The translations under genes were made by a program, and so were the position numbers. Below, in pieces: positions 1 through 13,913 of a stretch of 23,081 nt of DNA (the stretch's first letter is position 1; each line of letters opens with the position of its first letter). The notes under the pieces are model-generated. The model ran no database searches. It saw nothing but the letters and a program-made list of their open reading frames with translations, and was not told where the DNA came from. Source of the DNA: a virus; IMG/VR virus record IMGVR_UViG_3300036652_001187, positions 1 through 23,081 of that record; one strand, 5' to 3'.

Positions 1-136
1 AACACCCGTACCTCATCCCGGCGACGAAGGTATCGTCGGCTCGGGAAGCCGCGTGATGCCAGCGTCCGCTGAGCGTCTCCACGGCGGTGAGTGTCCGTTC
101 CGCCGTTGCCTGGAGGTCATTCACGCCCGTTTCCAT
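1..136 (-). CDS. Hypothetical protein, N-terminal 45 residues (runs off the window)
   Basis: The frame opens with ATG at 134-136 and stays open to the window edge without a stop. The start is supported by an AGGAG at 146-150, nine bases upstream, and by a good promoter at 164-193. The visible part begins METGVNDLQATAERTLTAVE and looks helical and hydrophilic, with no signal peptide. I do not recognise a family. It is the first gene of a new transcription unit, separated from the modification cluster by a 138-base gap, so it need not share that cluster's function. Confidence 0.7.
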   Translation of the reverse strand, partial: METGVNDLQATAERTLTAVETLSGRWHHAASRADDTFVAGMRYGC

Positions 137-163
137 GATCTTCGTCTCCTGTGGTCCGGTCGA

Positions 164-193
164 ACCGTAGTACCGGTGTTTGTGCTAGGTCAA
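164..193 (-). promoter_or_regulatory. Putative sigma70-type promoter for the gene starting at 136
   Basis: On the minus strand a -35 box TTGACC (188-193) is followed by an 18-base spacer and a -10 box TACGGT (164-169, TAnnnT type usual in actinobacteria). The predicted transcript would start near 157, giving a leader of about 20 bases that contains the AGGAG at 146-150. The same arrangement, with the identical TACGGTT, occurs upstream of the helicase gene at 15806-15835, which raises confidence that both are real. Confidence 0.6.
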
Positions 194-274
194 CACGATC
201 AGCGATCTTGCCCGACCTAGGTGTGGATCTTACCTCGTGGAGCTGTCCTGTCATCCGTTGGACCCAGGTCGATA

Positions 275-718
275 CTACCCGGTCAGGCGCGGTCTGGCAA
301 TACCTACGGCGCGCCACCAGGCGTCCACGACCACCTTCGCGGCCGCGCCGTTCACCGGGTCGTTCCACCATCGGCTGAGGCCCGACGTGTGGTGGATCCC
401 GAAGATCGAACCGCGGGCGACGGGTGGCACGACACCGGCGAACCGGCAGGTCTCCCGGCCCACGAGCATGATCGTCTCCCAGTCCGTCCCGAGGTGCCCG
501 ACGAAGTACTGCACGCGCCGTCGGGCGACCGTGCGCGACTCGTCACCGGTCTCGTACGCGTTGACGGTGTCGCAGCGCCTCAGGAGGTCATCTAGCGTGA
601 CGCCCGCCATCCTGGCCAGTCGACTACCGGACGCACAGTCGAGCGCCCTGCGGGAGAGGTCTCGACCTGGTCCAGGCGCCAGCCCGATGATGAGGTGGTT
701 ACCGGTCGCGGAGCGCAC
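275..718 (-). CDS. Uracil-DNA-glycosylase-superfamily-like protein
   Basis: A 147-residue protein with a GTG start at 716-718, overlapping the end of the SDR gene by 20 bases. It begins with a beta strand leading into LIIGLAPGPG (residues 9-18), which resembles motif 1 of the UDG superfamily (GxxPG type). A second strand (TIMLVGRET, about 82-90) and the segment HHTSGLSRWWND (109-120) match the usual placement of UDG motif 2 (HPS-type loop). The usual Pro of motif 2 is Thr here, so glycosylase activity is uncertain. It closes the base-modification cluster, which fits a role in excising or editing a base, but this is inference from context. An inactive DNA-binding relative is the main alternative. 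Confidence 0.55.
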   Translation of the reverse strand: MRSATGNHLIIGLAPGPGRDLSRRALDCASGSRLARMAGVTLDDLLRRCDTVNAYETGDESRTVARRRVQYFVGHLGTDWETIMLVGRETCRFAGVVPPVARGSIFGIHHTSGLSRWWNDPVNGAAAKVVVDAWWRAVGIARPRLTG

Positions 719-1583
719 GTGCGACCCCCTCCTCGATGGTGACGCGTGGCTTGTAGATCTTGTGCAGCTTGGTCGGGTCGCCGACGCGACGCATGACGCC
801 CACCGGGGCGTCGGCGCGCGGCGCAACGTCGCCCGAGTAGCCGGCCTCGGCCATGAACATCTCGGCGAGTCGGGTGAACGACGTGCCGACGCCGGTGCAG
901 ATGTTGAGCGGGCCGACCACGAGCGGGTCCCAGTCCAGCGTCTCGACGAGGGCGTCCACGACGTCGTCGATGTGGACCCAGTCACGGACCTGCCCACCCG
1001 TACCCCACACGACGAACGGGTCCTGGCGCGCCCAGGCACGTCGCGCGAACGACGGGAACGGGTAGTCCGTGTCCTGGTCCGTGCCGTACCCGGAGAACGG
1101 GCGGAACACGTAGACGCCCGCGCCGAGGGCGTTCACGTACTGGGCCAGCCTCTCACCTGTGAGCTTCACCCACCCGTACACGGCGTCGGGCTGGTCGGCG
1201 TCCTCGAGGTCGATGTCGGACTCGACGAGTGGCCCGTGGCCGGACCTGAGCGTCTGGTGCCTGACCGGGTACGCGGCGCTGCTCGAGAAGTACACGCTCC
1301 GTCGTGGCCTCGTGCGCAGCACGTACTGGAAGAAGTCCGAGTCGATGGCCAGGTCCGCGGCGACCTTCATCGGCTGCCCGTCGATCATCGCACGCCCGCC
1401 CACGACGGCGGCGAGGTGCACGACGAGCTCGAACCTTCCCGTGTCGTGCCGGAACACGTCGCGGCAGTCCACCCCGAGCCTCACGTCCACCCCCGTGACG
1501 TCCCACCCGTCGCGCTCGAGGCGCGCCACCACGTGGCGCCCGACGAACCCGGCGGACCCCGTCACGAGTGCTGTCTTGCCCAT
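699..1583 (-). CDS. NAD-dependent epimerase/dehydratase (extended SDR, GDP-mannose 3,5-epimerase-like)
   Basis: A 294-residue extended short-chain dehydrogenase that probably epimerises or otherwise remodels a nucleotide sugar. Visible features are the Rossmann motif TGSAGFVG (8-15), the strand VVHLAAVVGG (54-63), a serine-rich SSSAAYP (100-106) and the catalytic pair Tyr136-Lys140 in YGWVK. The HLAA-x-x-GG segment, the SSAAYP segment and a late VWGTGGQVRDWVHIDD segment recall GDP-mannose 3,5-epimerases more than UDP-galactose epimerases. I chose the ATG at 1581-1583 because GGAAG lies five bases upstream; a TTG four codons earlier is possible. It overlaps the methyltransferase gene by 22 bases. 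Within the cluster it would act after the nucleotidyltransferase. The exact substrate cannot be read from sequence. Confidence 0.82.
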   Translation of the reverse strand: MGKTALVTGSAGFVGRHVVARLERDGWDVTGVDVRLGVDCRDVFRHDTGRFELVVHLAAVVGGRAMIDGQPMKVAADLAIDSDFFQYVLRTRPRRSVYFSSSAAYPVRHQTLRSGHGPLVESDIDLEDADQPDAVYGWVKLTGERLAQYVNALGAGVYVFRPFSGYGTDQDTDYPFPSFARRAWARQDPFVVWGTGGQVRDWVHIDDVVDALVETLDWDPLVVGPLNICTGVGTSFTRLAEMFMAEAGYSGDVAPRADAPVGVMRRVGDPTKLHKIYKPRVTIEEGVARALRDR

Positions 1584-2872
1584 ACCGTCTTCCAATCGTT
1601 GGTCACGTCGATGATGTGCTCGCGCTCACCGCGGTCGGGGAACGGGACGGTGCGGTCCTCACCCGGCACCTTCAGCTTGAGGCCACGCGGCCACGCGCCG
1701 TCGGTGTACGAGCCTGGGCTCCCCTCGATGGACGCCTTAGCCCAGCGCGCGACCCACCGACCGGAGTGCACGGGGATGCCCTTGCCCCAGGTCATGGCGA
1801 CGGCGTTGCCCATGTGCCGTAGCGGCTCGATCCGCCACGCGTCCGGGAAGCCCTGGATGCGCGCCGCCTCGCGGTGCGTCAGCGTGCGAGGTAGCCAAGG
1901 GTGGAGCACGAGGTGGCACGCGCCGCCGGTGATGACACGTGCCGGGTAGTCCGCCAGCCAGCGTGACACCGAGTTGGGCACGGGACGGAACTCGTACGCG
2001 AGCAGGTTCCGCACCTGCCGCTCCGTCCACATCCCCGACCCGTCACCCTCCTCCCGCTGACGTGGGAGGTCGCCGAACTTCTCGTAGTACCGCCGCGTGG
2101 GTGCCATGACGGTCTCGCCCTCGTCCCACCCCACGTTCTCGATGAGGAACCTGGCACGCTTGTACGTCGGCGACCGGACGATCTCGTGCCCGTCCACCAG
2201 CCCGGTGCCGTCGTGCATCTGCGCCGACCACCACGACGCCCGGCCGCGGTACGGCTGCTGCTCCCACGTGAGCCCGAGGGGCGCCAGGTCGTGCAGCAGG
2301 TCACGAAACGACGGGACCCTGTCCAGCGTCACGCGCTCGACGCCGAACGGCACCCGTGACGCGACGAAGAAGTACCGCTTGCGGATCGACGCGCCGCCGA
2401 GGCTGGCGTTGTTGTGCAGCACGTGGTACAGGTCGTACTTGTGCCCGGACTCCTCCTCGAGGGTCGACCGCAGGTCGCGCATGAGGCCGATGCCCTGGCG
2501 GAACGCCTGCTGCACCGACTCGAAGATCACGACCTCGGGCTTCACGCGGGCGGCGTAGTGGATCAGCGCCCACATGCAGTCGTTGATCGGGCTGTCGTTG
2601 CCGCGGAAGCCCTTCGTGCTAGTTAGCGTCGAGAACCCTGAGCACGGTGGGTTGCCGAGCACGACCTGCGCGTCGACCGTGTCCCAGTCCTCGCCCGAGC
2701 GGCCGTACGACAGCTGGGTGTCCCAGCCGTCACCGAGCAGGTGCCGGTTCACGATGATGTTCGGCGCACCGAACCCCTGCGGCCACTCGCACCGGGTGGC
2801 CATCTCTAGCCCAGCCTGCGTGGCCGCCAGGTCGAACGCGCCACCGAACCCGAAGACGGATGCGAACCTCAC
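1562..2872 (-). CDS. DNA (cytosine-5) methyltransferase, with ESV instead of ENV in motif VI
   Basis: A 436-residue C5-MTase-family enzyme; family members transfer a methyl group from SAM to C5 of cytosine in DNA. Motifs appear in the standard order: I FGFGGAFDLAATQAG (7-21), IV GNPPCSGFS (73-81, nucleophile Cys77), VI FESV (117-120), VIII RKRYFFVAS (164-172), a recognition region up to about 325, IX HREAARIQGFPD (333-344) and X GNAV (355-358). Motif VI normally reads ENV; Ser119 replaces the Asn that contacts cytosine and SAM. The GTG start at 2870-2872 overlaps the preceding stop as GTGA and has GGAG upstream. The specificity is unknown. Its presence beside a putative dCMP hydroxymethylase is odd, because a fully substituted C5 would block it. 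Confidence 0.88.
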   Translation of the reverse strand: MRFASVFGFGGAFDLAATQAGLEMATRCEWPQGFGAPNIIVNRHLLGDGWDTQLSYGRSGEDWDTVDAQVVLGNPPCSGFSTLTSTKGFRGNDSPINDCMWALIHYAARVKPEVVIFESVQQAFRQGIGLMRDLRSTLEEESGHKYDLYHVLHNNASLGGASIRKRYFFVASRVPFGVERVTLDRVPSFRDLLHDLAPLGLTWEQQPYRGRASWWSAQMHDGTGLVDGHEIVRSPTYKRARFLIENVGWDEGETVMAPTRRYYEKFGDLPRQREEGDGSGMWTERQVRNLLAYEFRPVPNSVSRWLADYPARVITGGACHLVLHPWLPRTLTHREAARIQGFPDAWRIEPLRHMGNAVAMTWGKGIPVHSGRWVARWAKASIEGSPGSYTDGAWPRGLKLKVPGEDRTVPFPDRGEREHIIDVTNDWKTVWARQHS

Positions 2873-3306
2873 GCCGTGAACTCCAGGCGTCCCTCAACGG
2901 TCAAGGCGAACTTGAGTGTCGTCTTGGTGGCGACTGGGTTACTCGCACCGCGGTGGCACCCACTGCGGTCAGGAACCACACGCATACGTCGTCTGATCGC
3001 CGGTCGCTCACTGAATGGTTCGAGGAGTGTTATGTCGTGGATCGTGACGTCGAGGTCGCGGTAGGTCGTCTCGAAGAATCGGCGTGCGTCACCTTTCCAC
3101 CCGCCCTTGTTGTAGCACTCGTGATCGAACTTCATCACGATCGCGGCACGGTCACCAAAGTCGGCTGGCGGCTCATACCGAGTGTTACGAACCGTGCCAC
3201 TGACCTGTGCCCTTCGAGCCAGTGGGCGCGATAGGAACGCTGGGACGTGTTCGTTCCGCACCGTCACCAGCACGCCGATCTTGTTCACCCCGTATTGATC
3301 CCCCAT
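2869..3306 (-). CDS. Hypothetical protein (145 aa)
   Basis: I do not recognise this protein. It starts GDQYGVNKIGVLVTVRNEHV after the initiator Met and looks like a small alpha/beta protein with several charged strands. The ATG at 3304-3306 lies just past the preceding TAG with a nine-base gap to GGAGG; an ATG three codons earlier (3313-3315) is also possible. The gene ends in a GTGA overlap with the C5-methyltransferase, which suggests translational coupling. Codon third positions are visibly richer in A and T than in the methyltransferase or SDR genes, so it may be a recent arrival. The C-terminal strand pattern gives no function. Confidence 0.65.
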   Translation of the reverse strand: MGDQYGVNKIGVLVTVRNEHVPAFLSRPLARRAQVSGTVRNTRYEPPADFGDRAAIVMKFDHECYNKGGWKGDARRFFETTYRDLDVTIHDITLLEPFSERPAIRRRMRVVPDRSGCHRGASNPVATKTTLKFALTVEGRLEFTA

Positions 3307-3307
3307 G

Positions 3308-3643
3308 CTACTCATCCTCCTCCTGTGATCCTGGTGTGTCTTTCCTGGTGAACCCACTGTCATCCATCTGATTGAATGACGAGAGCTCCCGCCATCCTGT
3401 GTGTATGCTAGGTGGCGGGGTGATCATACCGAGCATGACCTGCCCATCATCGTCGGTGCCCATCACGGTAGGCGTGACGTGACGCAGTGCACGCTCGACC
3501 GTGACTGACGAGTCCTCGCGCACGCTGGCGCAATACACATCATACGGCATGTGACCGTACATGATCTCAGACAGGTCGCCGCCCCAGATCTTACGCTCCC
3601 ACTCATCGCGCGCCCGCTCTCGAAATCCTCGTGTGTCCGTCAC
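3308..3643 (-). CDS. Hypothetical protein (111 aa)
   Basis: I do not recognise this protein. It begins with GTG at 3641-3643, in a GTGA overlap with the pyrophosphatase gene upstream, and reads VTDTRGFRERARDEWERKIW at the N terminus, a charged and probably helical start. The middle contains GHMPYDVYCASVRED and the C terminus is very acidic (SQEEDE). No zinc site, membrane segment or nucleotide-binding motif is visible. Base composition is lower in GC than the sugar genes, as in the next gene. Its place between the nucleotide pyrophosphatase and the C5-methyltransferase is the only hint to a role. Confidence 0.62.
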   Translation of the reverse strand: MTDTRGFRERARDEWERKIWGGDLSEIMYGHMPYDVYCASVREDSSVTVERALRHVTPTVMGTDDDGQVMLGMITPPPSIHTGWRELSSFNQMDDSGFTRKDTPGSQEEDE

Positions 3644-4149
3644 CGCGGCACGGCCATGTCGAGTCGCTCGCACCAGACGTGCGACCATGGCTCCCGCCCA
3701 GCGACGTCATCGACCAGCGGCGTGACGAGGCGACACCTGACCGCGACGTCGTCGAGCGCCCGCCCGCAGCCTGGGCACTTGGTCGACACACCGTCGTAGC
3801 CGTCGAGCTGCCGTCGCGCGTTGATCTCGTGCTTCACACGATACTTGTCGAAGAGCTCGGTGGCGTCCATGCCCACGACGAGGCAGAGGTTCATGAGGAA
3901 GTGCCAGGCGTCCACGAGCTCACTCTTGAACGCGTCCTTGTCCTTGAACCCCGTGCCGGTCGCCCACGGCTTCCAGTGCGTCTCGGCGAGCGCCTCGTGC
4001 AGCTCGTCCACGAGTGCCGTGACGTTCCAGTGCACGAACTCGATGGCACGGGCGTCGCTAAGCTCGCCCGGGTCCTGGCCGTACGACTCGATCTGCAGGC
4101 GCAGCTGCTCCGCCAGCATCACGTCGAGCTTGTCCGTCGTGTCGGTCAC
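3640..4149 (-). CDS. MazG/dimeric dUTPase-dCTPase-type pyrophosphatase with C-terminal zinc ribbon
   Basis: A 169-residue protein whose first 115 residues match the all-alpha NTP pyrophosphatase fold, which hydrolyses dNTPs or NTPs to the monophosphate. Metal-binding pairs are Glu49-Glu52 in DELHEAL and Glu77-Asp80 in ELVDAWHFLMN, followed by the typical VGMDATELFDKYRVKHEINARRQ helix. T4 gp56 (dCTPase/dUTPase) belongs to the same superfamily, so the enzyme could drain dCTP and dUTP while supplying dCMP for the putative hydroxymethylase at the other end of the window. The tail carries a likely zinc ribbon, Cys125-x2-Cys128 with Cys139 and Cys160, which is not part of the core fold. GTG start at 4147-4149. 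The substrate (dCTP, dUTP or other) is not decidable from sequence. Confidence 0.8.
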   Translation of the reverse strand: MTDTTDKLDVMLAEQLRLQIESYGQDPGELSDARAIEFVHWNVTALVDELHEALAETHWKPWATGTGFKDKDAFKSELVDAWHFLMNLCLVVGMDATELFDKYRVKHEINARRQLDGYDGVSTKCPGCGRALDDVAVRCRLVTPLVDDVAGREPWSHVWCERLDMAVPR

Positions 4150-4195
4150 GCGACACCCAATCCTAACTGCTGCTCGATGCAGCGCTCCAGGTTAC

Positions 4196-5371
4196 TCACT
4201 CCCACACTCCTGTGGATAGGAACCGATACCATCGTGCCCGTGTCGTCTCATCGAGCACGCCACCGGAATGCGCTTCATCCGTTCTGATGTAGCTGGGTGC
4301 GGCGGGTCGTAGCCCACGGATGCACTGCTGCACCTCACCTGGTGTTGCCAGTGGTGTGTCACACACGAGCGGGTCGGGCACGTTGGTGATCGCGTCGTCA
4401 AGCTGCTGGTGGAATCGCTCGATCGACCAAGCGTGTGCGTAGAAGTACTCACACTGTCGCGCCGCTAGCCAGTCAAGATCGCTACCACTGATCTGCTCAA
4501 CATCGCAAGGTGCTAGGTCGCTGAACGGTGAGTCAGGCGCCTCGTTACGTGCGACGATCAACGGTGTGCATGTTGACACAGCCGTAAGGTATCGTAACCG
4601 CCACCAGCCGGACCCAGCGTGATCGTACGGCCGTGCTAGCGATCCCGCGTGCCGTAGGTGCATGCGGGTGATCACGTCTTCCGGTACGATGGGGCTCTGT
4701 CTGTCGCCGTACCGTACGATCGGCCAAGTGCAACCGTTCGCTAGGCCGCCGATGCCTTTCGGGGCACGCAGCGCCGCGAACAGCCATGATCGCTCACGTG
4801 TCGACGCCCGTGGCTCACACCCTTCGTATCCTGGGACAGGAGTTAGTCGTGACGGGTCTAGTGGCACAACGGAGGTGAACCCATTCGTCAACACACGTGC
4901 GGGGTCGAGCCCAGGGAACGAGAAGTTCTGTGTTACCATCGGACGCGCGTGCACGCTCTGCGCCGCGTGCACGATCGGCACGGCATAGTCGGGTAAGTGC
5001 CAGTAGCGCCAGTCAGATCTTGTTACGCCACCGACTAGCTCACGCAACACCTTCTTAGATGGGTCAGGTGCCCCGGGTGTCGGGAATGATCGTAGGACGC
5101 CGGTGATGTTGTGGTCGGTAACGAACGTGATGCTAGGGATCTGTGACATCGCCCACAGTGCGCCGTGCGAGTATCTACTTGACAACGATGACAGCTCCCA
5201 CAGCTGCACCAACGCGCGATCATACTTGGATAGATCGTCGGTAGGACGAACACGACGTACGTCTACCTCGTGGCCAAGATTCCGTAACGCGCCGATCAAG
5301 ACTGCGTCAAAGTTCGCAGAGAACGGTAGCGCTGGCCTGAGTGTCATGAACGACGTGACGAGGATCTTCAT
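4196..5371 (-). CDS. Glycosyltransferase-like protein (GT-B type, tentative)
   Basis: A 391-residue protein starting at ATG 5369-5371, in an ATGA overlap with the preceding glycosyltransferase-like gene. It opens with MKILVTSFMTLRP and NFDAVLIGALRNLGHEVDV (20-38), a typical GT-B first beta-alpha unit. It then shows strands YDRALVQLW (50-58) and ITFVTDHN (81-88). The region 241-273, HAGSLARPYDHAGSGWWRLR followed by YLTAVSTCTPLIV, looks like the C-terminal donor-binding half. I see no classical catalytic signature, so the assignment rests on fold pattern and neighbours. Third-position composition is clearly more AT-rich than in the flanking sugar genes, suggesting separate acquisition. The acceptor may be modified phage DNA (inference). 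Confidence 0.55.
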   Translation of the reverse strand: MKILVTSFMTLRPALPFSANFDAVLIGALRNLGHEVDVRRVRPTDDLSKYDRALVQLWELSSLSSRYSHGALWAMSQIPSITFVTDHNITGVLRSFPTPGAPDPSKKVLRELVGGVTRSDWRYWHLPDYAVPIVHAAQSVHARPMVTQNFSFPGLDPARVLTNGFTSVVPLDPSRLTPVPGYEGCEPRASTRERSWLFAALRAPKGIGGLANGCTWPIVRYGDRQSPIVPEDVITRMHLRHAGSLARPYDHAGSGWWRLRYLTAVSTCTPLIVARNEAPDSPFSDLAPCDVEQISGSDLDWLAARQCEYFYAHAWSIERFHQQLDDAITNVPDPLVCDTPLATPGEVQQCIRGLRPAAPSYIRTDEAHSGGVLDETTRARWYRFLSTGVWE

Positions 5372-6816
5372 TGGTGGATACCCAGCTGCATCTCGATCGT
5401 ACTCTCCAGGTAGTCCTGTCCTCGACGCCGGCTGAGCAGCGCCCTCTGGGCGGCGGTAAGCCACTCGTACGTCTCGCGTGACGTGTTGACCGCGTCGACC
5501 CTCTTCTTGAGCTCCCCGGGCTCCTGGACACGGAGCCAGCGCGCGAGGTGTAGCTCCTCGTCCGTCCAGTCGTCGCCGCGGACGGACCACAGCCCGTCAC
5601 ACACGGGCTGTGCGCCCGGCGTCCTCTCGAGTGACGGCAGCACCCAGCCCTGCCTATCCACCGGGCCTACGAAGAAGCACGCCGTGCGCGCCGCGAACGC
5701 CTGGTACGGCTTCGCGACGGACCACCCGATCCCGTCCAGCGACCGCGTGCCCGCGGGGAGCGACACCGTCGCACGCCAGGACGCGAGCAGGTCGGGGAAC
5801 TGGGCGACGCTGTTGCGCTGCACCGTGAACCCGATCACGTCGGCCTCGGTGCTCTTATCGTCCCACCTGCCGAACACCTCAGCGTCGGGGAACTGGTCCA
5901 CCACGTAGGTCTTGGTCAACCACGAACGGCGCCACTCGTCACGGTCTACGTACATCGACGTGGTGGCGACGCCGATGGGTCGACGCTCCTCGTACGGCCG
6001 CTGACCCCAGGTCTCCCAGTCGTCGTCGAGGATCATGAGCTCGAGGTCCGCCTGCTGGAACGAGTTCTCCACGATCCAGATCTCGCGGTCGCGCTCCCAC
6101 CGGGCGTTCGTGAAGCCCAGCGCCTGCGGGTCGCGCGTGTCGCCGTACCGCTCGTGCTTGGACGGCCGTGAGTACCGGTACTGCGAGAGCACGTGGTCTA
6201 GCCCCGTGGGCCACTTGACGTCGCGCGCCTTCATGTAGTTCCGGGGATCGGTGCAGATCCACGTCACGGGTGCGCGGCCGTCCGTGCGCTCACCCATCGC
6301 GTTCAGCGACCTCGTCAGGTACTCCGAGTAGTTACGCGACGTGGCCTGTGGGTGCGTGAGCTTGCCGTCCCGCCAGTGGCCCGACGCCTCTGGGATCGGG
6401 TAGTTGCTCGTCCCGTGCTGCCCGAGGTGGACGACCATGCCGTCGAGCTCCTCGTGCGACATCTTGATGAGCGACCGCTCGATATCCTTCAGCGCCTGCG
6501 CCTTGTCGCAGCAGTACACGTCCATGGTGTGCACGCCTGGGTAGTACACCTTGCAGTGCGCGCAGAAGTACCCCTTCTTGTCCATCGACACCGACGCGCG
6601 CGTGACGTCCTCCGGCCAGACGATCGTCACGTTCCCTGGGACGACGGATCTGTCCGGGATGGGGCCGTGCTTGCCGACGACCACCCACTCGACGTCAGGG
6701 TTGCGCCGCGCCAGCCGCCACAGCAGCTGCGGCGCCTCGGCGTCGCCCTGTGGGCCGTACCGCGCCGGGTCCATGGTCATGGAACGCCCGAGCTTGGCGT
6801 ACCCGATCTTCCTCAC
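5368..6816 (-). CDS. Glycosyltransferase-like protein with cysteine insertion
   Basis: A 482-residue protein with a GTG start at 6814-6816 (GTGA overlap with the kinase fusion). The N terminus MRKIGYAKLGRSM followed by GDAEAPQLLWRLARRNPDVE (24-43) and WVVVGKHG resembles GT-B glycosyltransferases, where one domain starts by grouping cells of beta-alpha units. Residues 83-103 hold CAHC and YCC (Cys85, 88, 102, 103), a possible small zinc site. A late segment, LDGIGWSVAKPYQAFAARTA then CFFVGPVDRQGW, fits a sugar-nucleotide-binding domain. A bacteriophage base glycosyltransferase is my preferred reading given the cluster. A surface or capsule-directed glycosyltransferase, or a non-enzymatic relative, remains possible. 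Confidence 0.58.
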   Translation of the reverse strand: MRKIGYAKLGRSMTMDPARYGPQGDAEAPQLLWRLARRNPDVEWVVVGKHGPIPDRSVVPGNVTIVWPEDVTRASVSMDKKGYFCAHCKVYYPGVHTMDVYCCDKAQALKDIERSLIKMSHEELDGMVVHLGQHGTSNYPIPEASGHWRDGKLTHPQATSRNYSEYLTRSLNAMGERTDGRAPVTWICTDPRNYMKARDVKWPTGLDHVLSQYRYSRPSKHERYGDTRDPQALGFTNARWERDREIWIVENSFQQADLELMILDDDWETWGQRPYEERRPIGVATTSMYVDRDEWRRSWLTKTYVVDQFPDAEVFGRWDDKSTEADVIGFTVQRNSVAQFPDLLASWRATVSLPAGTRSLDGIGWSVAKPYQAFAARTACFFVGPVDRQGWVLPSLERTPGAQPVCDGLWSVRGDDWTDEELHLARWLRVQEPGELKKRVDAVNTSRETYEWLTAAQRALLSRRRGQDYLESTIEMQLGIHQ

Positions 6817-8306
6817 GTGAGTCCCTCCAGCAACGTGACACCGCGTGCCACGAGCACCTCGTCGAGCGGCGCCGCGTGCAGCGGCGCCGAACTGAGCAGC
6901 GTCAGCCCAGCGATGATCGCGACGTCATCGCGTGGCCCGCCGAGCCAGCGGTACACGGCGTTCATGTGCGTGACGCCCCCGGCCCACAGCCTGAAGTCAC
7001 CGCGGCGCGCCCTGTCCCAGTGCACGACGCACCCGCCTATGATCTTGGCGAGATCATACCTGCGGTCGCCCCACTCGAGGTGCCCCGCGAAGTCCTGCCT
7101 CCAGTCGATCCCGACGAACCCAGCGCCGGTGTCGATGACGTTCCCGAAGTTGAAGTCACCGTGGAAGATGACGGGCTCGCACCCGTCCGCCAGCCCGTCC
7201 CACCTGACGCGCCGTAGCGCGTCGGTCGCCATGTCACGGAGGTCGGGTCGTAGGCGCGCGACCCGGTCGGCCGTCTTGCGCAGGTAGAACTCGGTGCAGG
7301 CGTCTACGCGTTCCTGGGCGGGCACGTTGGCCGGCTTCCAGATCTTGTCCGCCGCCCAGTCGAGCAGCCGCGGCACGAGGGTGTCGTCCGTCTCGGCGGT
7401 CGGGTAGCACGTGGTGCCCTCGATGAACTCGTACGCGAGCATCGTACCGCGCCGACTCACGAGCCGTGGGATGGTGCCGTTCAGCATCCATGCACGGTCG
7501 GCGCGCTCGCGAAGCACGGCCTCGTCCGCCCAGAACTTCACCACGCGCCCCTCACGTGGGAGCACGTAGGTCGCCTCGTCCGTCTTAGTCCAGTCGTAGC
7601 CACTGAAGGCTGCGACGGCGCGACGGTACGCGTCCTCGTCGCCGACGTCGGTCCACCCGACCCGCACGCCGAGCAGCGACCCGGAGTCGACGAGTCGTGC
7701 CAGGCCACCCGTGACCTGCCGCTCGCGCCCGACGAGGTCGCCGTTCGCGACCCCGCGCCAGAACGAGTCGATCTCCGACGGTTGGACGCACGCCAACCCG
7801 ACGTAGGCGAGCGACCCGTCACCGAGCCACGGCTGCTTGTCGAGCACCCGCGTGACCACACCCTCGGCGTCCACGGCCATACGACACCAGCGCTCGGGCG
7901 CCGTACCGGCTGGCACCGGCGCCACCGCGGCCCAGCTGCGCGTGGCCTCCCACAGGGCCGGGTCGTGGTTCCACAGCGTGTCGCATGACGTGAGGATCAT
8001 CTTGTCGTGACCCACCACGTGACGTGCCGCCAGCAGCGACGCCCCCGGCCCGGCGCCGGGCTGGTCCCAGTCGTCGACGTCGACGAACGTGACGTCGAGG
8101 CTGGGGTGCGCGAGTCGCACGTAGTCCTTGACCTGGTCGGCGCGGTAGCCCACGCACACGATGAGCCGGGCGCCTGCGGGTGCGAGGTCGAACAGGTGCG
8201 AGAGCAGCGCCCGGTCGTCGAGCGGTACGAGCGCCTTGTGCAGGCTGTCACCGACGCGGCCCATGCGCGAGCCTCGACCCGCGGCGAGGACGACGAACGC
8301 GGTCAT
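6813..8306 (-). CDS. Bifunctional sugar-1-phosphate nucleotidyltransferase / APH-type sugar kinase
   Basis: A 497-residue fusion. Residues 1-235 form a nucleotidyltransferase: LAAGRGSRMG (7-16) with Lys24 is the NTP-binding signature, Asp109 in TSCDTLW is the likely metal ligand, and GWTDVGDEDAY (217-227) is the usual end of the domain. Residues 240-490 form an APH/choline-kinase-like domain with FHGDFNFGNV (381-390, catalytic Asp384, Asn389), GIDWRQDFAG (Asp401) and the helix YDLAKIIGG (417-425). The domain pair parallels the separate MurU and AmgK proteins, where an APH-fold anomeric kinase makes a sugar-1-phosphate and the transferase activates it. A LicC/LicA-type choline route is the alternative. 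ATG start at 8304-8306, in an ATGA overlap with the cupin gene. Confidence 0.85.
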   Translation of the reverse strand: MTAFVVLAAGRGSRMGRVGDSLHKALVPLDDRALLSHLFDLAPAGARLIVCVGYRADQVKDYVRLAHPSLDVTFVDVDDWDQPGAGPGASLLAARHVVGHDKMILTSCDTLWNHDPALWEATRSWAAVAPVPAGTAPERWCRMAVDAEGVVTRVLDKQPWLGDGSLAYVGLACVQPSEIDSFWRGVANGDLVGRERQVTGGLARLVDSGSLLGVRVGWTDVGDEDAYRRAVAAFSGYDWTKTDEATYVLPREGRVVKFWADEAVLRERADRAWMLNGTIPRLVSRRGTMLAYEFIEGTTCYPTAETDDTLVPRLLDWAADKIWKPANVPAQERVDACTEFYLRKTADRVARLRPDLRDMATDALRRVRWDGLADGCEPVIFHGDFNFGNVIDTGAGFVGIDWRQDFAGHLEWGDRRYDLAKIIGGCVVHWDRARRGDFRLWAGGVTHMNAVYRWLGGPRDDVAIIAGLTLLSSAPLHAAPLDEVLVARGVTLLEGLT

Positions 8307-8833
8307 CGGCCGTAGTCGTCACTGACGCGCACCACGTCCGTCGGGTGGTACGTGCTGGCCTCGAAATAGAGCCGCTGCCCGGTGACGCGGTGGACGGTCC
8401 TCGGCGCGACGTGCACCGCCTCGTCGTCGAGGATGTGGATCATAACCTCGTCCTTGTACTCGTGGTACTGCTCGCTCGTGCGGTGCCCCTCAGCGACGTA
8501 GAGGAGCTTCAGCTGCAGTCGGTTCATGGTCGTGAGCGCCTCGAGCTCCCAACCCCACGGCTTACCGTGGAGTCGGATCGACTGCGCCGTCGCCGTGTGC
8601 ACGTCGTCCTCCGCGGCGGACGAGGTCACGACACCGGCGATGCCGCCGCGACCCACGATGGATGTATCCCCGAGGGCGATGAACTCCAGCGCCGTCATCG
8701 GCGGAACGTCGAGGCCGCCGTACGTCCACTCGCCGACCATCGGGAACATGATCCCGTACCCACGCACGCGCAGCCGCGTGTCGTCGTCGATGAGGTGGAG
8801 CGTGTAGCCGCTACCCCGCGATGAGCGCGTCAC
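8303..8833 (-). CDS. Cupin protein related to type II phosphomannose isomerase
   Basis: A 176-residue protein. The C-terminal half is a cupin matching the isomerase part of type II mannose-6-phosphate isomerase/guanylyltransferases: KPWGWE (about 90-95), a strand LQLKLLYVAEGHRTSEQYHE with the expected basic and His metal ligands, VAPRTVHRVTG, and the hallmark ending DVVRVSDDYGR. The first 85 residues (FPMVGEWTYGGLDVPPMTAL and on) are not a cupin I recognise. The GTG start at 8831-8833 is set by GGGAGG six bases upstream and overlaps the aldolase-like gene by 23 bases. It could interconvert a ketose and an aldose phosphate, or epimerise a sugar, for the nucleotide-sugar pathway. Metal ligands and activity are not proven. 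Confidence 0.72.
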   Translation of the reverse strand: MTRSSRGSGYTLHLIDDDTRLRVRGYGIMFPMVGEWTYGGLDVPPMTALEFIALGDTSIVGRGGIAGVVTSSAAEDDVHTATAQSIRLHGKPWGWELEALTTMNRLQLKLLYVAEGHRTSEQYHEYKDEVMIHILDDEAVHVAPRTVHRVTGQRLYFEASTYHPTDVVRVSDDYGR

Positions 8834-9695
8834 GGATCGCCTCCCGCACGTTCTCGTCGCTGTAGCTGTTGGTCACCTCGGCGACGACGCGGTCCTCGAG
8901 GTGGTACCGCAGCGCCGCGCGTGCGCGCTCGAACCGCGTCCCCTCGCCGTCGTTGAACCACCGCCGCCATGAACCCGTGCCATACGCGTAGTTGAGCAGC
9001 TTCGCGCTGGCGGCCCGAGGAAGTGATCGGAGCCACGCGTCGACCTCAACGTTCCCGAACTCCGGCGCGACGTTGTACGCGTCCAGCGCGTCGGCGTAGC
9101 GGGCGCGGTCACCGAGCCAGTCCATGTTGTGCGCCTTCGTGCCGATGCCGAGCCCGCGGTAGTCGGCGCCGTACCTAGTGACCCACCCGACGTCACGTAC
9201 GGAGCCACGCTGACGATCAGCCCAGATGTGACCACCCACGTCCATGACCGCGTACAGCGGGGTGACCCCGACCTCTACCGTCCTCCTGACGATCGTGTCC
9301 AGCCACAGCTGGTCATCACGCTCGCCGCCGACCTCTACCTTGCACCTAAGGGCGAACAGCCCCAGCAGCCTGCTGAGCTCACCTAGTTGCTCCGAGCGCG
9401 GTAGCCTGCACACGTCGATGTGTAGCACATCAAAACCCGCGTCCAGGTCCTGCTCGAACGCCTTGACCCAGTCGTCCTCAGGGTCGCCATTCTGGTACGG
9501 GCCGCCGTGATCACGCACGACCTGCGTGGCGCCACAGCTGAGGTCTTTCACGGTCGCCGCGAACTCGGCGTTCGTCAGGCCTGTGTATCCACCCTCATGC
9601 GTCACCTGACGCCGTGACGCCACGATCTGGGGGACGCGTAACCTAGCCGCCTCCTCGACCACGCGCCGTGATCCCGCGCCCACACACAACTTCAC
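8811..9695 (-). CDS. GatZ/KbaZ-like TIM-barrel protein (tagatose-bisphosphate aldolase non-catalytic subunit family)
   Basis: A 294-residue protein with a GTG start at 9693-9695, AGGAGG five bases upstream, in a GTGA overlap with the phosphatase gene. THEGGYTGLT (32-41), RDHGGPYQN (61-69) and LHIDV (91-95) line up with the NQDGGYTG, GGDHLGP and IHLD(A/M) segments of GatZ/KbaZ. Those proteins are described as chaperone-like partners of class II tagatose-bisphosphate aldolases. No partner GatY/KbaY gene is visible in the window, so this stand-alone copy may have its own activity on a sugar phosphate, such as aldol or epimerase chemistry. It sits between the KdsC-like phosphatase and the isomerase-type cupin, which supports a sugar-building role (inference). 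Confidence 0.68.
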   Translation of the reverse strand: MKLCVGAGSRRVVEEAARLRVPQIVASRRQVTHEGGYTGLTNAEFAATVKDLSCGATQVVRDHGGPYQNGDPEDDWVKAFEQDLDAGFDVLHIDVCRLPRSEQLGELSRLLGLFALRCKVEVGGERDDQLWLDTIVRRTVEVGVTPLYAVMDVGGHIWADRQRGSVRDVGWVTRYGADYRGLGIGTKAHNMDWLGDRARYADALDAYNVAPEFGNVEVDAWLRSLPRAASAKLLNYAYGTGSWRRWFNDGEGTRFERARAALRYHLEDRVVAEVTNSYSDENVREAIRDALIAG

Positions 9696-10231
9696 ATGAT
9701 CCTCCTGAGTACGTAGTCCACAGCCTGTGCTACGGCGCGGTGCCCGCCTGGGCGGCTGGTCACCGCATCCGCGCATCGTATCGTCCAAGGCCAGGCGTCC
9801 GCCGGCGCCACGCCGAACGCGACCTCGCGCACGTTGTCAGCGTCGTGCCACCCGTCCCCGATGTACACCGTCCTAGTCGAGTCGACGTCGTGGTGCTCGA
9901 CGAGCCACGGTACCCGAGCGGCACCGGGGGCGACGACGAGCGGTACGCCCATGTGCTCGGCGCGGTGACGGACGATCAGTGAGCCCTGCTCATCCGCGGT
10001 CACCAGCGTCACACGCAGGTGGGCGGCCTGCGCCGCCTTCAGCGCGTCCGAGTCGTCTGGGCCGAACGCCTTCCACGCCTTCTCGCCGAGCCCGTTGACG
10101 ACCAGTCGCCCGTCCGTCATGCACCCGTCCACGTCCACCACGAGGTCCCGTACCCCGAGACGCCGTAGTGCGGCGGCGCGCCTGCGACCGGCGACGGTCA
10201 CCCGCACACGATCGCGACGCACCCTGCCCAT
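9692..10231 (-). CDS. HAD-family sugar phosphatase, KdsC-like
   Basis: A 179-residue HAD hydrolase of the small C0 type seen in KdsC and sialate/heptose phosphatases, which remove phosphate from sugar acids or sugars. Motif I is DVDGCMTDG (33-41, nucleophile Asp33 and acid/base Asp35), motif II is the Thr of LVTAD (76-80), and motif IV is GDGWHDADN (125-133, Asp126 and Asp130). The RPGGHRAVAQAVDYVL tail matches the C-terminal Gly-Gly/Arg segment of KdsC. The ATG at 10229-10231 is preferred, with GAGGG upstream; a TTG two codons earlier is less likely. It is the first gene of the sugar cluster. Its product would be a free sugar, which fits the downstream APH-type kinase. Confidence 0.85.
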   Translation of the reverse strand: MGRVRRDRVRVTVAGRRRAAALRRLGVRDLVVDVDGCMTDGRLVVNGLGEKAWKAFGPDDSDALKAAQAAHLRVTLVTADEQGSLIVRHRAEHMGVPLVVAPGAARVPWLVEHHDVDSTRTVYIGDGWHDADNVREVAFGVAPADAWPWTIRCADAVTSRPGGHRAVAQAVDYVLRRIM

Positions 10232-10352
10232 CCCCAATCCCTCTGCCTAAGTGTGTGTGTGACGGCCTCGCCCCTACCGTCGCGCGCCGGCCCTTACTGG
10301 CACCCGCCGCTTGATCGACGACTGCCCGGTGAGACCTATCCCGGCGCTCCCT
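10232..10352. other. Intergenic gap between replication and sugar clusters
   Basis: This short gap, together with the hairpin next to it, is the longest non-coding stretch between genes inside the main array. It contains a (GT)n-like run near 10250-10261 and GC-rich text. I found no -35/-10 pair resembling the two promoters elsewhere in the window, and no small gene with a ribosome-binding site. If the sugar cluster has its own promoter it should lie here, but I cannot point to it. Confidence 0.5.
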
Positions 10353-10373
10353 GTCCCGTTCCCTACGGGGGGT

Positions 10374-10385
<12 letters not shown>
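10353..10385. repeat. Perfect 9-bp inverted repeat spanning the DUF669 gene stop codon
   Basis: GTCCCGTTC (10353-10361) and GAACGGGAC (10377-10385) are perfect reverse complements separated by 15 bases. The TAA stop of the DUF669-like gene (10374-10376) lies in the loop. A transcript could fold into a GC-rich hairpin just after the coding region. There is no following U-run on the minus strand, so a simple intrinsic terminator is doubtful; a partial terminator, mRNA-stability element or protein-binding site are alternatives. It separates the replication genes from the sugar cluster. Confidence 0.45.
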
Positions 10386-11111
<726 letters not shown>

Positions 11112-11147
11112 GCGGTGTGTCTCCTTCGGTTGGGTTGTTGTGTACGT

Positions 11148-11387
11148 CTACTGGATGTTACCCGACGGGAGGATGAGTCCCGTCGCCGCTGACTTGCCTA
11201 GCGTCTTGATCTGTTCGCCGAGGGTGACCGCGTGGTCCGCCGGGAGGAGGAACACGAAGGGACCGCCCACGACCGTCAACACCTGGAGAACGACGAACGT
11301 TCCCGCGGGCGTCACCGTCTGGCCGACGATGAACTGCAGTGGTGTGATCTGCGGTTGGACCTGCGGTTGCGGCTGCTGCTCAAGCAC
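11148..11387 (-). CDS. Small hypothetical protein (79 aa)
   Basis: I do not recognise this protein. It starts VLEQQPQPQVQPQITPLQF, a Gln-Pro-rich arm, followed by a beta-rich hydrophobic section (VGQTVTPAG, TFVVLQVLTVVGGPFVFLLP) and a helical end. The hydrophobic section is interrupted by Gly and Pro and does not look like a membrane helix. I chose GTG at 11385-11387 because it overlaps the preceding TGA by eight bases, with GAGG at a plausible distance; an upstream ATG at 11403-11405 is possible. It lies between the Sak4-like and DUF669 genes, so a part in recombination is conceivable. Confidence 0.55.
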   Translation of the reverse strand: MLEQQPQPQVQPQITPLQFIVGQTVTPAGTFVVLQVLTVVGGPFVFLLPADHAVTLGEQIKTLGKSAATGLILPSGNIQ

Positions 11388-12153
11388 TCGCCGCCACCTC
11401 GACATGCGCCGCACCGAAGATCGTGTCGATCATCGACTGGATGTTCGGGTCGTACACCGCCTCGCCGAGCTTACCCTGCACGCGCTCGCCGGCCTCGTAC
11501 AGGTTGTTCTTGGCGACGATCATTCGCCGGTACTTGGTCGCCGGCTGCATGGGATCCACGTTCGGCTCCTCGTGGATGTGCATGTAGCCGATGACGTCCA
11601 TGAAGTACGGCATCGTCACCCGAAGCTGACCCTGCACGTACGGGCGCCACTTGCCGTCGCGCTGCTCAGTCATCGCCGTGAGCACCACAGCCTCGAGCGG
11701 TGTCGTGGGATGCTCGGTCAGGTCGCGCAGCTGGCGGCACATTGCCTCCATGCCGTCGAGGAGGCGCCCCCACTTGCGCTGGTCCATATCCGGGTCACCC
11801 TCCTTGATCTGATCCTTGAGCTTCTTCTGGACCTCGGAGATGGAGTCGACGGCGACGGACTTGAAGTGGTGCTGCCCCGAGATGAGCCAGTCGATGGCGC
11901 GCTGCAGTGTCATGTAGTCACGCACGAGCACCACACAGATCGCCCACGTGCCGTCGCTGACCGGTGGGGACTCGGTCAGTGGATTCCAGAACACCTTGGG
12001 CGCGTCGATGAACCGGTATGCCGACTCGGCGTCGAGCAGCAGCATCGGCTTGGGACAGGTCGCCGCGAGCGTCGACTTGCCCACCTTCGTGTCGGCGTGT
12101 ACCACCACTGACAGCGCCCTGCCACGCACGGCGCCGTTGAGCGTCTCGCCCAC
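11380..12153 (-). CDS. Sak4-like RecA-family ATPase (AAA)
   Basis: A 257-residue P-loop protein. Walker A is ADTKVGKST (20-28), with the strand MLLLDAE (37-43) and Walker B FKSVAVDSISE (97-107, Asp103). This is the arrangement of phage Sak4-type single-strand annealing or RecA-core ATPases, which act in recombination with an SSB-like partner; the DUF669-like gene lies next downstream but one. The start is GTG at 12151-12153, sharing one base with the preceding TAG, and is set by AGGAGG five bases upstream; ATG at 12196-12198 would lie far from any such site. The C-terminal half is rich in helices, with GYMHIHEEPN and KYRRMIVAKNN. Confidence 0.8.
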   Translation of the reverse strand: MGETLNGAVRGRALSVVVHADTKVGKSTLAATCPKPMLLLDAESAYRFIDAPKVFWNPLTESPPVSDGTWAICVVLVRDYMTLQRAIDWLISGQHHFKSVAVDSISEVQKKLKDQIKEGDPDMDQRKWGRLLDGMEAMCRQLRDLTEHPTTPLEAVVLTAMTEQRDGKWRPYVQGQLRVTMPYFMDVIGYMHIHEEPNVDPMQPATKYRRMIVAKNNLYEAGERVQGKLGEAVYDPNIQSMIDTIFGAAHVEVAASA

Positions 12154-12338
12154 TACTTCCTCCTCGTCCTCAGCCACTCGCGCAGCTCGGTGTGACATGA
12201 CCTGCATAGGATCTTGCGCCGTACCCCGCCACGCTCGTCCAGCGACACCGTAACCCAGCCGTCCGACAACGTCGGGCGACCCTGACGGTCGACGGCCGCG
12301 GGCTGAGTCTCGCCGCAGACGCACGTGTAGTGCGTCAC
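12153..12338 (-). CDS. Small zinc-ribbon protein (61 aa)
   Basis: A 61-residue protein with two cysteine pairs, CVCG near residues 6-9 and CRSCH near 45-49, typical of a single zinc ribbon. The middle reads GWVTVSLDERGGVRRKILC. The GTG start at 12336-12338 overlaps the upstream stop as GTGA. It may bind nucleic acid or a replication protein. I do not recognise a named family; similar small zinc proteins are common in actinobacteriophages. Confidence 0.72.
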   Translation of the reverse strand: MTHYTCVCGETQPAAVDRQGRPTLSDGWVTVSLDERGGVRRKILCRSCHTELREWLRTRRK

Positions 12339-12697
12339 CTGGCGGCAGGGATCACTGGTGGTCTAGTACGAACCGCCACCTCGCCGACCTCGAACCCGTT
12401 CTTGTCAGCGAGGCGCCGGACGAGGCTCTCGGCGTCGTCAGCGTTCGCGCCCTTCGCCGTGTACGACCCAAAGAACGACACCCACCCGTTCCCACGCGCC
12501 AGGTGGGAGATCCTCCACAAAGCCGACGATTTGTTCACGATCACGTCCAGCAGGTCATCGGTGTCGTCGGTCAGCACCTCGACCGCGACGAGGCCTAACC
12601 ACGTCTGCATGATCTTCGGCGCACGCTTGCTGCCGGTGCGTTCCTTCTCGACGCGCGTGATCAGCGCCTCGATGTCGTCGTCCCTGTAACCCGTCAC
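12335..12697 (-). CDS. Hypothetical protein (120 aa)
   Basis: I do not recognise this protein. It reads VTGYRDDDIEALITRVEKER at the start, then a helical centre with LGLVAVEVLTDDTDDLLDVI and a beta-rich segment RISHLARGNGWVSFFGSYTA. The GTG start at 12695-12697 overlaps the nuclease gene stop as GTGA, with GAGGAG upstream. No catalytic motif is visible. Its tight coupling to the Cas4/RecB-like nuclease and the Sak4 gene suggests an accessory role in recombination or replication (inference). Confidence 0.65.
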   Translation of the reverse strand: MTGYRDDDIEALITRVEKERTGSKRAPKIMQTWLGLVAVEVLTDDTDDLLDVIVNKSSALWRISHLARGNGWVSFFGSYTAKGANADDAESLVRRLADKNGFEVGEVAVRTRPPVIPAAR

Positions 12698-13680
12698 GTC
12701 ATCTCCTCATCAGTCATCCCGTCGGCGTACCGCTCGTACGGGTCCACGTGTACGTAGTGCTCTTCCAGCAGCCCCTGCCAGTCGCTGCCGTCGTCCATCA
12801 TTGGGCAGACGCTGAGGAACGGGCACTTCCACGAGCAGTCCTTGCTCGGACGTGGGACTGCCCAGTACCGGTGGTCACCACCGGCGTCGAGCGCCGCCCG
12901 CATCTCGACGATCTCCTCGATGATCTTCTGGACGCGCAGCCACATGCTGCGGAGCGTGTCCATGTTGTGCCTGACCTCGATGCGACCGTAGAACGGCGGT
13001 TTGGCCGTCGCGGTGCGCTTGACCTTCCGGAGGATGTTGTAGAGGCCGCCGTCCGTGCGCTCGGGTGGGCCCTCGCCGGTCTTCTGCAGTGCGTCGAGGT
13101 ACTCGAGGAGCGCGTACATCTTCATCTGCTCATCGATGGGCAACAGCGTCGACTCGCCGGAGATCGACGGCCGTGTCTTGTGGTCGAGGAACAGCCGCGC
13201 CCCGTCCGTGCTGCGCACGACCCGCTGGTCCAGTCGCCCGCGGATCTTGACGCCGGGCACGGGGGAGTCCACCTCGATGGTGGCCTCGGTCGAGACCAGC
13301 GTGAAGAACTCGTCGGCTCCCGTCTCGTCGAGCCACTCGACGTAGCCCTGCAGCATCGCACGTGCGAGGTCCTTCTCCTTGCGGAGCTCGGGCGCGGCGG
13401 CCGGCCACCTCTTGATGTCCTCGTCGTACAGCTCCGTGATGCAGTCCACCAGGTTGACGGGTGGCCCGTCGTAGTTGGTGAGCGTAGACTTGTACCACTC
13501 ATCGAGCGCGATGTGCACCTTGATCCCGAGCGCGCGCGCCCCGACCTCGACGTCGTCACGTGACACGCCGTACTGCAGGTAGTGTGTCAGGTACCACTTG
13601 CGCCTGCAGTCCTTGTACGTCTGGATCTCGGAGTTGGAGATCGACAGCTCACCCGTGGCCGTGCGTGCGCCGTCGCTCAC
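12694..13680 (-). CDS. Cas4/RecB-like PD-(D/E)XK exonuclease with probable 4Fe-4S cluster
   Basis: A 328-residue nuclease. The core is visible as His56 (GIKVHIALDEW), Asp151 in RGRLDQRV, Asp166-x-Lys168 in FLDHKT and a QMKMYALLEYL helix (185-195), which is the RecB-nuclease pattern GxxD...DxK...QxxxY. Cys25 (YKDCRRKWY) together with Cys282, Cys286 and Cys292 (CSWKCPFLSVC) gives the N-terminal-one/C-terminal-three cysteine arrangement of AddB/Cas4 iron-sulphur nucleases. The GTG start at 13678-13680 overlaps the previous stop as GTGA. It probably resects or trims DNA ends for the Sak4/DUF669 recombination system or for replication. Confidence 0.85.
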   Translation of the reverse strand: MSDGARTATGELSISNSEIQTYKDCRRKWYLTHYLQYGVSRDDVEVGARALGIKVHIALDEWYKSTLTNYDGPPVNLVDCITELYDEDIKRWPAAAPELRKEKDLARAMLQGYVEWLDETGADEFFTLVSTEATIEVDSPVPGVKIRGRLDQRVVRSTDGARLFLDHKTRPSISGESTLLPIDEQMKMYALLEYLDALQKTGEGPPERTDGGLYNILRKVKRTATAKPPFYGRIEVRHNMDTLRSMWLRVQKIIEEIVEMRAALDAGGDHRYWAVPRPSKDCSWKCPFLSVCPMMDDGSDWQGLLEEHYVHVDPYERYADGMTDEEMT

Positions 13681-13892
13681 CCGGCACCTACGAGCGTCGC
13701 GCTGCGGACGAGGAAGTCCTCGGACACGATCACGCAGGTGCACGACACGCACACGTGCCGCCCCGGTGGCTTGTGCACGGTGATCGTCACGGCGCCCAAC
13801 GTGAACGCGTGGGAGCCCGCCTGGTCGTGCATGTTGTCCTCGGGCGCGCCCTCGTCGACCGGTGAACCGCACAGGTCACAGCAGTACCTCAT
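13677..13892 (-). CDS. Small cysteine-rich (zinc-binding) protein (71 aa)
   Basis: A 71-residue protein beginning MRYCCDLCGSPVDEG and containing a second pair CVSCTC near residue 50, giving a likely zinc-ribbon with CxxC knuckles about 40 residues apart. The loop includes HDQAGSHAFTLGAVTITVHK. ATG at 13890-13892 is preferred because AGGA lies nine bases upstream; a GTG two codons earlier is too close. It overlaps the nuclease gene by GTGA. Function unknown; it may act with the helicase or the nuclease on either side. Confidence 0.7.
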   Translation of the reverse strand: MRYCCDLCGSPVDEGAPEDNMHDQAGSHAFTLGAVTITVHKPPGRHVCVSCTCVIVSEDFLVRSATLVGAG

Positions 13893-13913
13893 CCTCACTC
13901 TTCCTGTCTCGCT

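Follow-up and report, generated by a model that had tools for sequence, protein, structure and literature searches.

A predicted cytosine-hypermodification pathway with its own sugar-activation cassette in an actinophage-type tailed phage

The locus and its genes

The window examined in the present study (the whole stretch of DNA that was analysed, 23,081 bases with a GC content of 0.67; IMG/VR record IMGVR_UViG_3300036652_001187) carries a replication module followed by a ten-kilobase sugar and base-modification cluster at positions 275-10231. Judged by gene content, these probably form a pathway for cytosine hypermodification in a tailed phage of the actinophage type, one that would transfer a sugar activated by phage enzymes onto 5-hydroxymethylcytosine (5hmC). 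The cluster had been proposed in a first-pass annotation and was confirmed, all listed genes lying on the minus strand as a single tightly packed operon in which gene ends overlap or abut, with a third-position GC content (GC3) of 0.83-0.93 in most genes. The majority of the gene identities given in that annotation also hold, with the uracil-DNA glycosylase (UDG)-like open reading frame (ORF) being only suggestive and the GatZ-like barrel and the cupin weak. The genes central to the prediction are the following:

22020-22850, minus strand (ATG at 22850): thymidylate synthase (TS)-family cytidylate C5-hydroxymethylase, predicted dCMP 5-hydroxymethylase (PF00303, 8.1e-14)
21592-22023 (start approximate), minus strand: dCMP deaminase (PF00383, 1.9e-17)
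9692-10231, minus strand (ATG at 10231): KdsC-like HAD sugar-phosphate phosphatase (NF007019, 66 bits; TIGR01670, 63 bits)
8811-9695, minus strand (GTG at 9695, AGGAGG upstream): GatZ/KbaZ-like barrel, possible class II aldolase-type enzyme (PF08013, 0.0012)
8303-8833, minus strand: cupin, mannose-phosphate-isomerase-like, possible sugar (phosphate) isomerase (PF01050, 0.023, weak)
6813-8306, minus strand: NTK, a MobA-like nucleotidyltransferase fused to an APH-type sugar kinase (PF12804, 6.5e-15; PF01636, 2.1e-7)
5368-6816, minus strand: GT1, GT-B glycosyltransferase with a predicted fold like that of T4 beta-glucosyltransferase (BGT) (AlphaFold2 and Foldseek)
4196-5371, minus strand (ATG at 5371): GT2, second glycosyltransferase-like protein, phrog_14998 family (8e-7)
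3640-4149, minus strand: MazG/dUTPase_2 NTP pyrophosphatase, candidate dCTPase (PF08761, 1.1e-11; phrog_18650, 1.8e-43)

Along the minus strand, the replication part comprises the TS-like gene, dCMP deaminase, PolA, several small ORFs, a RuvC-like gene and an SNF2 helicase, and continues through a PD-(D/E)XK nuclease, a RecA-like AAA protein and a DUF669 single-stranded DNA-binding (SSB)-like protein into the cluster. Record G001 (IMGVR_UViG_3300037069_003331) is 100% identical to positions 3-16816 of the window and extends ~13.9 kb further to the left, into tail and primase-type genes, from which content the window is assigned to a tailed phage. The GC content, synteny with Gordonia phage Sixama and the Actinomycetia phage DSL-LC01, and the fact that the GatZ-like protein has mostly actinobacterial relatives together suggest an actinobacterial host. 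A near-identity DNA search among phages returned a single 140-bp match and nothing useful.

Predicted dCMP hydroxymethylase and the acceptor base

The first-pass annotation had also pointed to an "Asp177 enzyme", which is real and lies outside the cluster, at 22020-22850. Its best match in the PDB is the CMP 5-hydroxymethylase MilA (4.1e-25). Residues were read from an alignment with T4 gp42, E. coli ThyA, MilA, RB69 ORF048 and Thanatos TH1_062, in which equivalents of the catalytic Cys, Asp177, Glu58, Ser167 and Arg126 are all present and T4 Cys148 and the general Glu60 are both matched. The position of T4 Asp179, which serves cytosine recognition and is Asn in TS, is Asp in the window and in all compared relatives of the cluster, and T4 Asp145, three residues before the Cys and Leu in TS, is matched within the motif DVPC. 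A water-activation role has been assigned to this Asp, which together with the Cys and Asp177 marks dCMP hydroxymethylases, Ser94 also being conserved (PMC6400193). Ser and Arg stand where MilA carries Ala176 and Lys133, and because these same changes shift MilA from CMP to dCMP (PMC5175136), a deoxy substrate is predicted.

A different base chemistry is known from RB69/Mosigvirus, which makes 5-arabinosyl-dC, and from Thanatos, which makes pentosyl-dC (PMC6024577, PMC13390438, PMC12838424), the pentose in RB69 and Thanatos being placed directly on 5-hydroxycytosine (PMC13390438, PMC12838424). If the window followed this route, its TS-like protein would be a 5-hydroxy-dCMP synthase and its sugar a pentose such as arabinose. 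The resemblance is real in that both systems have a TS-family enzyme with Asp177, a dedicated sugar donor and a phage-encoded nucleotidyltransferase-kinase fusion of one family, NTK being homologous to RB69 ORF053/052 and to the fusion of Pseudoalteromonas phage XG4 and belonging to the family of Thanatos TH1_060, which is 53% identical to the RB69 protein (PMC12838424). However, RB69 ORF048 and TH1_062 share another motif, with Glu before the Cys, Asp169 changed to Asn and Gly173 to Val, whereas the window enzyme keeps Asp at both diagnostic sites and lacks the 5-hydroxy-dCMP-synthase motif (Glu-x-x-Cys, Asp169 to Asn). Furthermore, the RB69 glycosyltransferase candidate ORF003c was rejected as a homologue of GT1 or GT2, matching neither profile, and the window has KdsC, GatZ and cupin genes instead of those for arabinose-5-phosphate isomerase, no KdsD-type isomerase being recognised in it. 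Direct O-pentosylation of 5-hydroxycytosine is therefore very unlikely here. Since the residues match dCMP 5-hydroxymethylases and not the RB69/Thanatos enzymes, 5hmC is the likely acceptor base, in agreement with the first-pass suggestion.

Two glycosyltransferases

The AlphaFold2 model of GT1 (pLDDT 74.2, pTM 0.79) was compared with the PDB using Foldseek and matched 1nzd, 1qkj, 1j39 and 1bgt with E-values of 2e-6 to 1.4e-5, reaching a TM-score normalised by target of up to 0.66 against T4 beta-glucosyltransferase entries. This enzyme is among the best PDB fold matches of GT1, along with other GT-B enzymes, and in BFVD the rank 2 viral match is annotated 'DNA beta-glucosyltransferase' (5.5e-12). 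By sequence, GT1 has no match in the PDB. The T4 beta-glucosyltransferase profile PF09198 is absent for GT1 and GT2 and in G001, with a positive T4 control, and neither the T4 alpha-glucosyltransferase profile PF11440, whose control was positive in T4, nor the TAGT profile PF20691 gave a match. Profile comparison of GT1 with GT2, and of either with T4 BGT, gave weak or no similarity, GT2 matching the BGT N-terminus with 66% probability over 59 columns only. The GT1 model thus resembles BGT in fold while not being a sequence member of that family.

GT2 was analysed with a seven-member family alignment. Its GC3 is 0.65; the two small ORFs that follow MazG are similarly low at 0.70, whereas neighbouring genes have 0.83-0.93 and MazG 0.91. 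Because its GC3 falls so far below that of its neighbours, GT2 is probably a recently acquired, later addition, and the arrangement of GT2 and the ORFs at 3308-3688 and 2869-3363, with MazG between them, suggests that they were acquired recently and not in a single step.

UDP-galactopyranose mutase (UGM), assigned by Pfam matches only, occurs in 9 of the 13 GT2-bearing records searched (G001 being one of the 13) and directly adjoins GT2 in the cases checked. The T4-like Erwinia phage FBB1 and Aeromonas phage phiAS4 carry UGM plus GT2 (L029:6838-8963 and L018:6796-8978, respectively) and a gp42-type hydroxymethylase with DFMC and RSND motifs; neither has a PF09198 or PF11440 glucosyltransferase gene, both of which were recovered from T4 as positive control. 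Based on this combination of a gp42-type enzyme, GT2 and UGM without T4 glycosyltransferases, GT2 looks like the 5hmC glycosyltransferase of these two phages, with UDP-galactofuranose as its obvious donor, which would imply galactofuranosyl-5hmC. No prior report of galactofuranosyl-5hmC, of UGM with hydroxymethylcytosine or of actinophage 5hmC was found in the literature searched, which covered few subscription papers; the authors of the DSL-LC01 study attributed to its UGM an action on the host cell wall (PMC10611076). The GT2 homologue of Sixama is gp127. Further glycosyltransferase-like or GT2-paralogous genes stand beside GT2 in Sixama (L028:13065-14315, gp126, and L028:14312-15292) and in DSL-LC01 (L017:14148-15137), hinting at sequential sugar addition.

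Conservation of the block and co-occurrence with TS genes

The gene order of the cluster is found again in other viruses, with protein identities of 28-48%, and on that account is not attributable to chance. The block is syntenic with DSL-LC01, Sixama and loci L033, L035 and L049, and the DUF669 SSB-like gene holds an equivalent position in DSL-LC01, L033-L036, L048 and L049. GT1 relatives lie between this gene and MazG or the methyltransferase in L033 and L049 and directly after it in L034, L035 and L036, while the order NTK-GT1-MazG without GT2 is found in L049 and L032. In XG4, the TS, NTK and GT1 genes are nearly consecutive. GT2 relatives in six other IMG/VR contigs are usually no more than two genes from TS, often with dCMP deaminase between; the deaminase adjoins both TS and GT2 in L004, L005, L006 and L009, is near both in L008, and adjoins TS in DSL-LC01.

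A search for further phages that combine this gene set with the Asp177 enzyme, as suggested in the first-pass annotation, gave a positive result. A TS-family gene accompanies GT2 relatives in 6/6 IMG/VR records and 5/6 named phages, and GT1 relatives in G008, G011, G020 and XG4, that is, in every record long enough and not ending just before the place of TS. Overall, TS was present in nine of 12 IMG/VR records with GT1 or GT2, the three misses being short or truncated contigs, versus one of 17 contigs bearing the GatZ-type cassette alone (Fisher p=1.9e-4, a figure that ignores kinship and is inflated by related contigs). Asp177-type TS, dCMP deaminase, MazG and a C5-cytosine methyltransferase (C5-MTase) are the repeated companions of GT1 and GT2 relatives.

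The last of these is encoded within the operon:

1562-2872, minus strand: C5-MTase homologue (PF00145, 2.2e-19; PPCSGFS catalytic motif, ESV replacing ENV)

It is next to or near MazG in L032, L033, L049, Sixama and DSL-LC01, and based on this conservation beside MazG in syntenic phages it is taken as part of the block, with putative roles in protection, regulation or something else. Such an enzyme with a conserved PPC motif could in principle initiate a scheme as in TET phages, whereby the C5-MTase methylates cytosine, an oxygenase converts the product to 5hmC and glycosyltransferases act on it. However, no Tet_JBP (PF12851) match was found in the window (an incomplete genome), G001, G008, G020, DSL-LC01 or Sixama, a search in which no positive control rang, and the nucleotide-level hydroxymethylase makes this route unnecessary; we give it hardly any credence.

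Sugar-activation cassette

The KdsC-like protein is assigned at family level only, its 66 bits lying under the curated NCBIfam cut-off of 208, and KdsC homologues come first in the cassette in L049, L068 and L074. The GatZ-like match to PF08013 is likewise weak and under cut-off, with relatives (28 other viral and 18 bacterial or archaeal) reaching 5.9e-10 and conserved motifs SRRQV, RDHGGP.Q, HID and APEFG; short alignments of the GatZ-like protein to DNMT3B in the PDB were considered spurious and ignored. Cupin relatives match PF01050 at 8.9e-9 and 3.4e-4 and usually adjoin GatZ or NTK. The homology of NTK to the RB69 and XG4 proteins is supported by a match to RB69 ORF052 (4e-5) and by iterative profile matches, and NTK and the XG4 fusion have phrog_4098, phrog_3980 and phrog_21938 in common. 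Together, a phosphatase, an aldolase-like barrel, a cupin and a kinase-nucleotidyltransferase would fit the conversion of a phosphorylated precursor to a free sugar, a sugar-1-phosphate and finally a nucleoside diphosphate (NDP)-sugar.

All four families are found together in the window, in L049, in Marinomonas (L068) and in a Pelagibacteraceae genome (L074), and the GatZ-cupin-NTK combination is present in many viruses. The two bacterial cassettes have the same four families close together but differ in lying in surface-polysaccharide-type loci, where no TS, GT1 or GT2 was detected. In L038-L047, GatZ-cupin-NTK (54-55% GatZ identity, at ~10000-13500 in most) stands beside HK97-type capsid/portal-like genes and GT-A type glycosyltransferases, as annotated by reading the translations of neighbouring genes, and a TS gene is absent from the six of these contigs tested. 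There the cassette probably serves to decorate virions, using either an identical sugar or a related one. Since cassette-only contigs mostly lack TS and several adjoin capsid genes, we regard the cassette as a transferable source of donor sugar, with neighbouring glycosyltransferases possibly deciding what receives it. A 61-kb virus contig (G024; L055 and L084) carries NTK, KdsC, GatZ and an Asp177-type TS; no GT1 or GT2 match occurs in the stretch read, and another glycosyltransferase family possibly serves the same purpose.

Virion protein glycosylation by phage enzymes has been proposed for some mycobacteriophages, and the L038-L047, L068 and L074 loci raise the question of whether the NDP-sugar of the window likewise ends up on proteins of the capsid or tail, or on the host envelope, with the hydroxymethylase neighbourhood a coincidence. 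As the same cassette elsewhere adjoins capsid genes, this is a live alternative for other phages. For the window we consider it unlikely: here and in syntenic relatives the cassette is embedded among the replication genes, accompanied by BGT-fold GT1 and TS-linked GT2, the virion-type and surface-type loci examined yielded no match to GT1, and GT2 accompanies gp42-type enzymes in FBB1 and phiAS4, which lack the T4 5hmC glycosyltransferases. The cassette in this window appears to be wired to DNA.

Comparison with known systems and proposed pathway

The T4 system for 5hmC glucosylation (gp42, gp56, alpha- and beta-glucosyltransferases) shares with the window the dCMP-hydroxymethylase signature, a dCTPase-type enzyme, a dCMP deaminase and, as predicted for GT1, a GT-B glycosyltransferase with a BGT-like fold. 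In contrast to T4, the window has no PF09198, PF11440 or PF20691 glycosyltransferase, encodes its own sugar-activation cassette where T4 uses host UDP-glucose, and has a PolA-based replication module with a C5-MTase and an SDR protein in the operon; the mismatch with the T4 route noted in the first-pass annotation is thus borne out. DSL-LC01 and Sixama are alike in the syntenic replication block, Asp177 TS, MazG, C5-MTase and a GT2 homologue, their counterparts being annotated only as glycosyltransferase or hypothetical; both differ in lacking the KdsC-GatZ-cupin-NTK cassette in the compared region, and DSL-LC01 in having UGM. By these comparisons the window would work like T4 glucosylation and shares a fusion protein with arabinosylating phages, while being a member of neither system. 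The pathway would be a variant of known cytosine hypermodification.

From the genes, homologies, residues, predicted GT1 fold and linkage we infer activities, an order of steps, the kind of sugar and a function as follows. The MazG/dUTPase_2 enzyme would convert dCTP to dCMP, some of which the deaminase would divert to dUMP, and the TS-like enzyme would convert dCMP to 5-hydroxymethyl-dCMP. Phosphorylation to the triphosphate, by a kinase that the host supplies or that is encoded beyond the window, would allow incorporation by the phage PolA. At the same time, a free sugar may be produced from a phosphorylated precursor by KdsC, the GatZ-like barrel and the cupin; NTK would phosphorylate and then nucleotidylate this sugar, and the SDR protein may epimerise it. 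GT1 would transfer this sugar to 5hmC in DNA and the later-acquired GT2 may add a second or alternative sugar, giving glycosyl-5hmC DNA resistant to host nucleases. The DNA-glycosylation reading of the first-pass annotation is strongly supported by comparative genomics, through the TS linkage of GT1 and GT2, the BGT-like GT1 fold and the hydroxymethylase residues.

Several observations weigh against this pathway. Ser94 of T4 dCMP hydroxymethylase (sometimes Thr) is replaced by Gly in the window, L035, L086 and L087. A hydroxymethyl-dCMP kinase was not identified in the window, where the ORF fragment at 22852-23081 shows no match to one. Neither GT1 nor GT2 has a Pfam match at E<=0.1, and for that reason both fall outside the T4 beta-glucosyltransferase, alpha-glucosyltransferase and TAGT families at the sequence level; the predicted model of GT2 is poor (pLDDT 55), its best matches being GT-B enzymes. 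There is no UGM in G001 or among the called genes of the window, and therefore the GT2 donor would differ or be host-made. Finally, the sugar cassette is also found in phages without a TS gene, beside capsid genes.

A more specific version, less likely than not, is that a novel sugar from the cassette is put on 5hmC by GT1 and extended or replaced by GT2. GT2 would then belong to a widespread and hitherto overlooked family of DNA furanosyltransferases, which would make galactofuranosyl-5hmC from UDP-galactofuranose in FBB1, phiAS4, DSL-LC01 and several environmental viruses.

If correct, the pathway would show that cytosine glycosylation, which is known in T4-like phages, also occurs in genomes of the actinophage type, and it would add two glycosyltransferase families outside existing DNA-glycosyltransferase profiles. 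Phages seem to direct its sugar pathway to the decoration of either DNA or virions. The association of GT2 with UGM leads to a prediction bearing on the isolated phages FBB1, phiAS4 and Sixama and suggests what genes annotated 'hypothetical' or 'UDP-galactopyranose mutase' are likely to do. Novel modified bases are relevant to restriction and CRISPR evasion and as sources of DNA-labelling enzymes.

Other genes and minor observations

The remaining features of the window are the following:

19590-21401, minus strand: DNA polymerase I family polymerase with 3'-5' exonuclease (PF00476, 4e-54; PF01612, 3.8e-13)
10374-11111, minus strand: SSB-like DUF669 protein of the replication module, upstream of the sugar genes (PF05037, 1.1e-9)
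3308-3688, minus strand: small ORF with low GC3 like GT2, no homologue in the loci compared
2869-3363, minus strand: small ORF with low GC3, no Pfam match
699-1583, minus strand: SDR nucleotide-sugar epimerase/dehydratase (PF01370, 2e-30; phrog_540, 1.9e-46)
275-718, minus strand: UDG-superfamily-like ORF, weak (PF03167, E=0.053; motifs GLAPG and HHTSGLSRW read directly)

The SDR protein is a sound homologue of nucleotide-sugar epimerases/dehydratases. The UDG-like ORF has no match in the PDB, its likeness being at motif level only. A long Ala-Pro repeat tail (APAPAPAP...) is present on the SSB-like DUF669 protein at 10480-10760. The segment at 22852-23081 is a C-terminal ORF fragment before the TS gene; it was rejected as a hydroxymethyl-dCMP kinase, having no similarity to the thymidylate-kinase-like gene at that place in DSL-LC01.

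RB69 ORF050c (L023:4493-5662, record positions 26492-27661), annotated 'peptidase', is a U32-family protein (PF01136, 7.4e-11) encoded one small ORF away from the 5-hydroxy-dCMP-type TS gene. The U32 family includes RlhA, a 23S rRNA cytidine C5-hydroxylase. The origin of the 5-hydroxyl in the RB69/Thanatos-type base has been left open (PMC12838424), and ORF050c might contribute to its formation.

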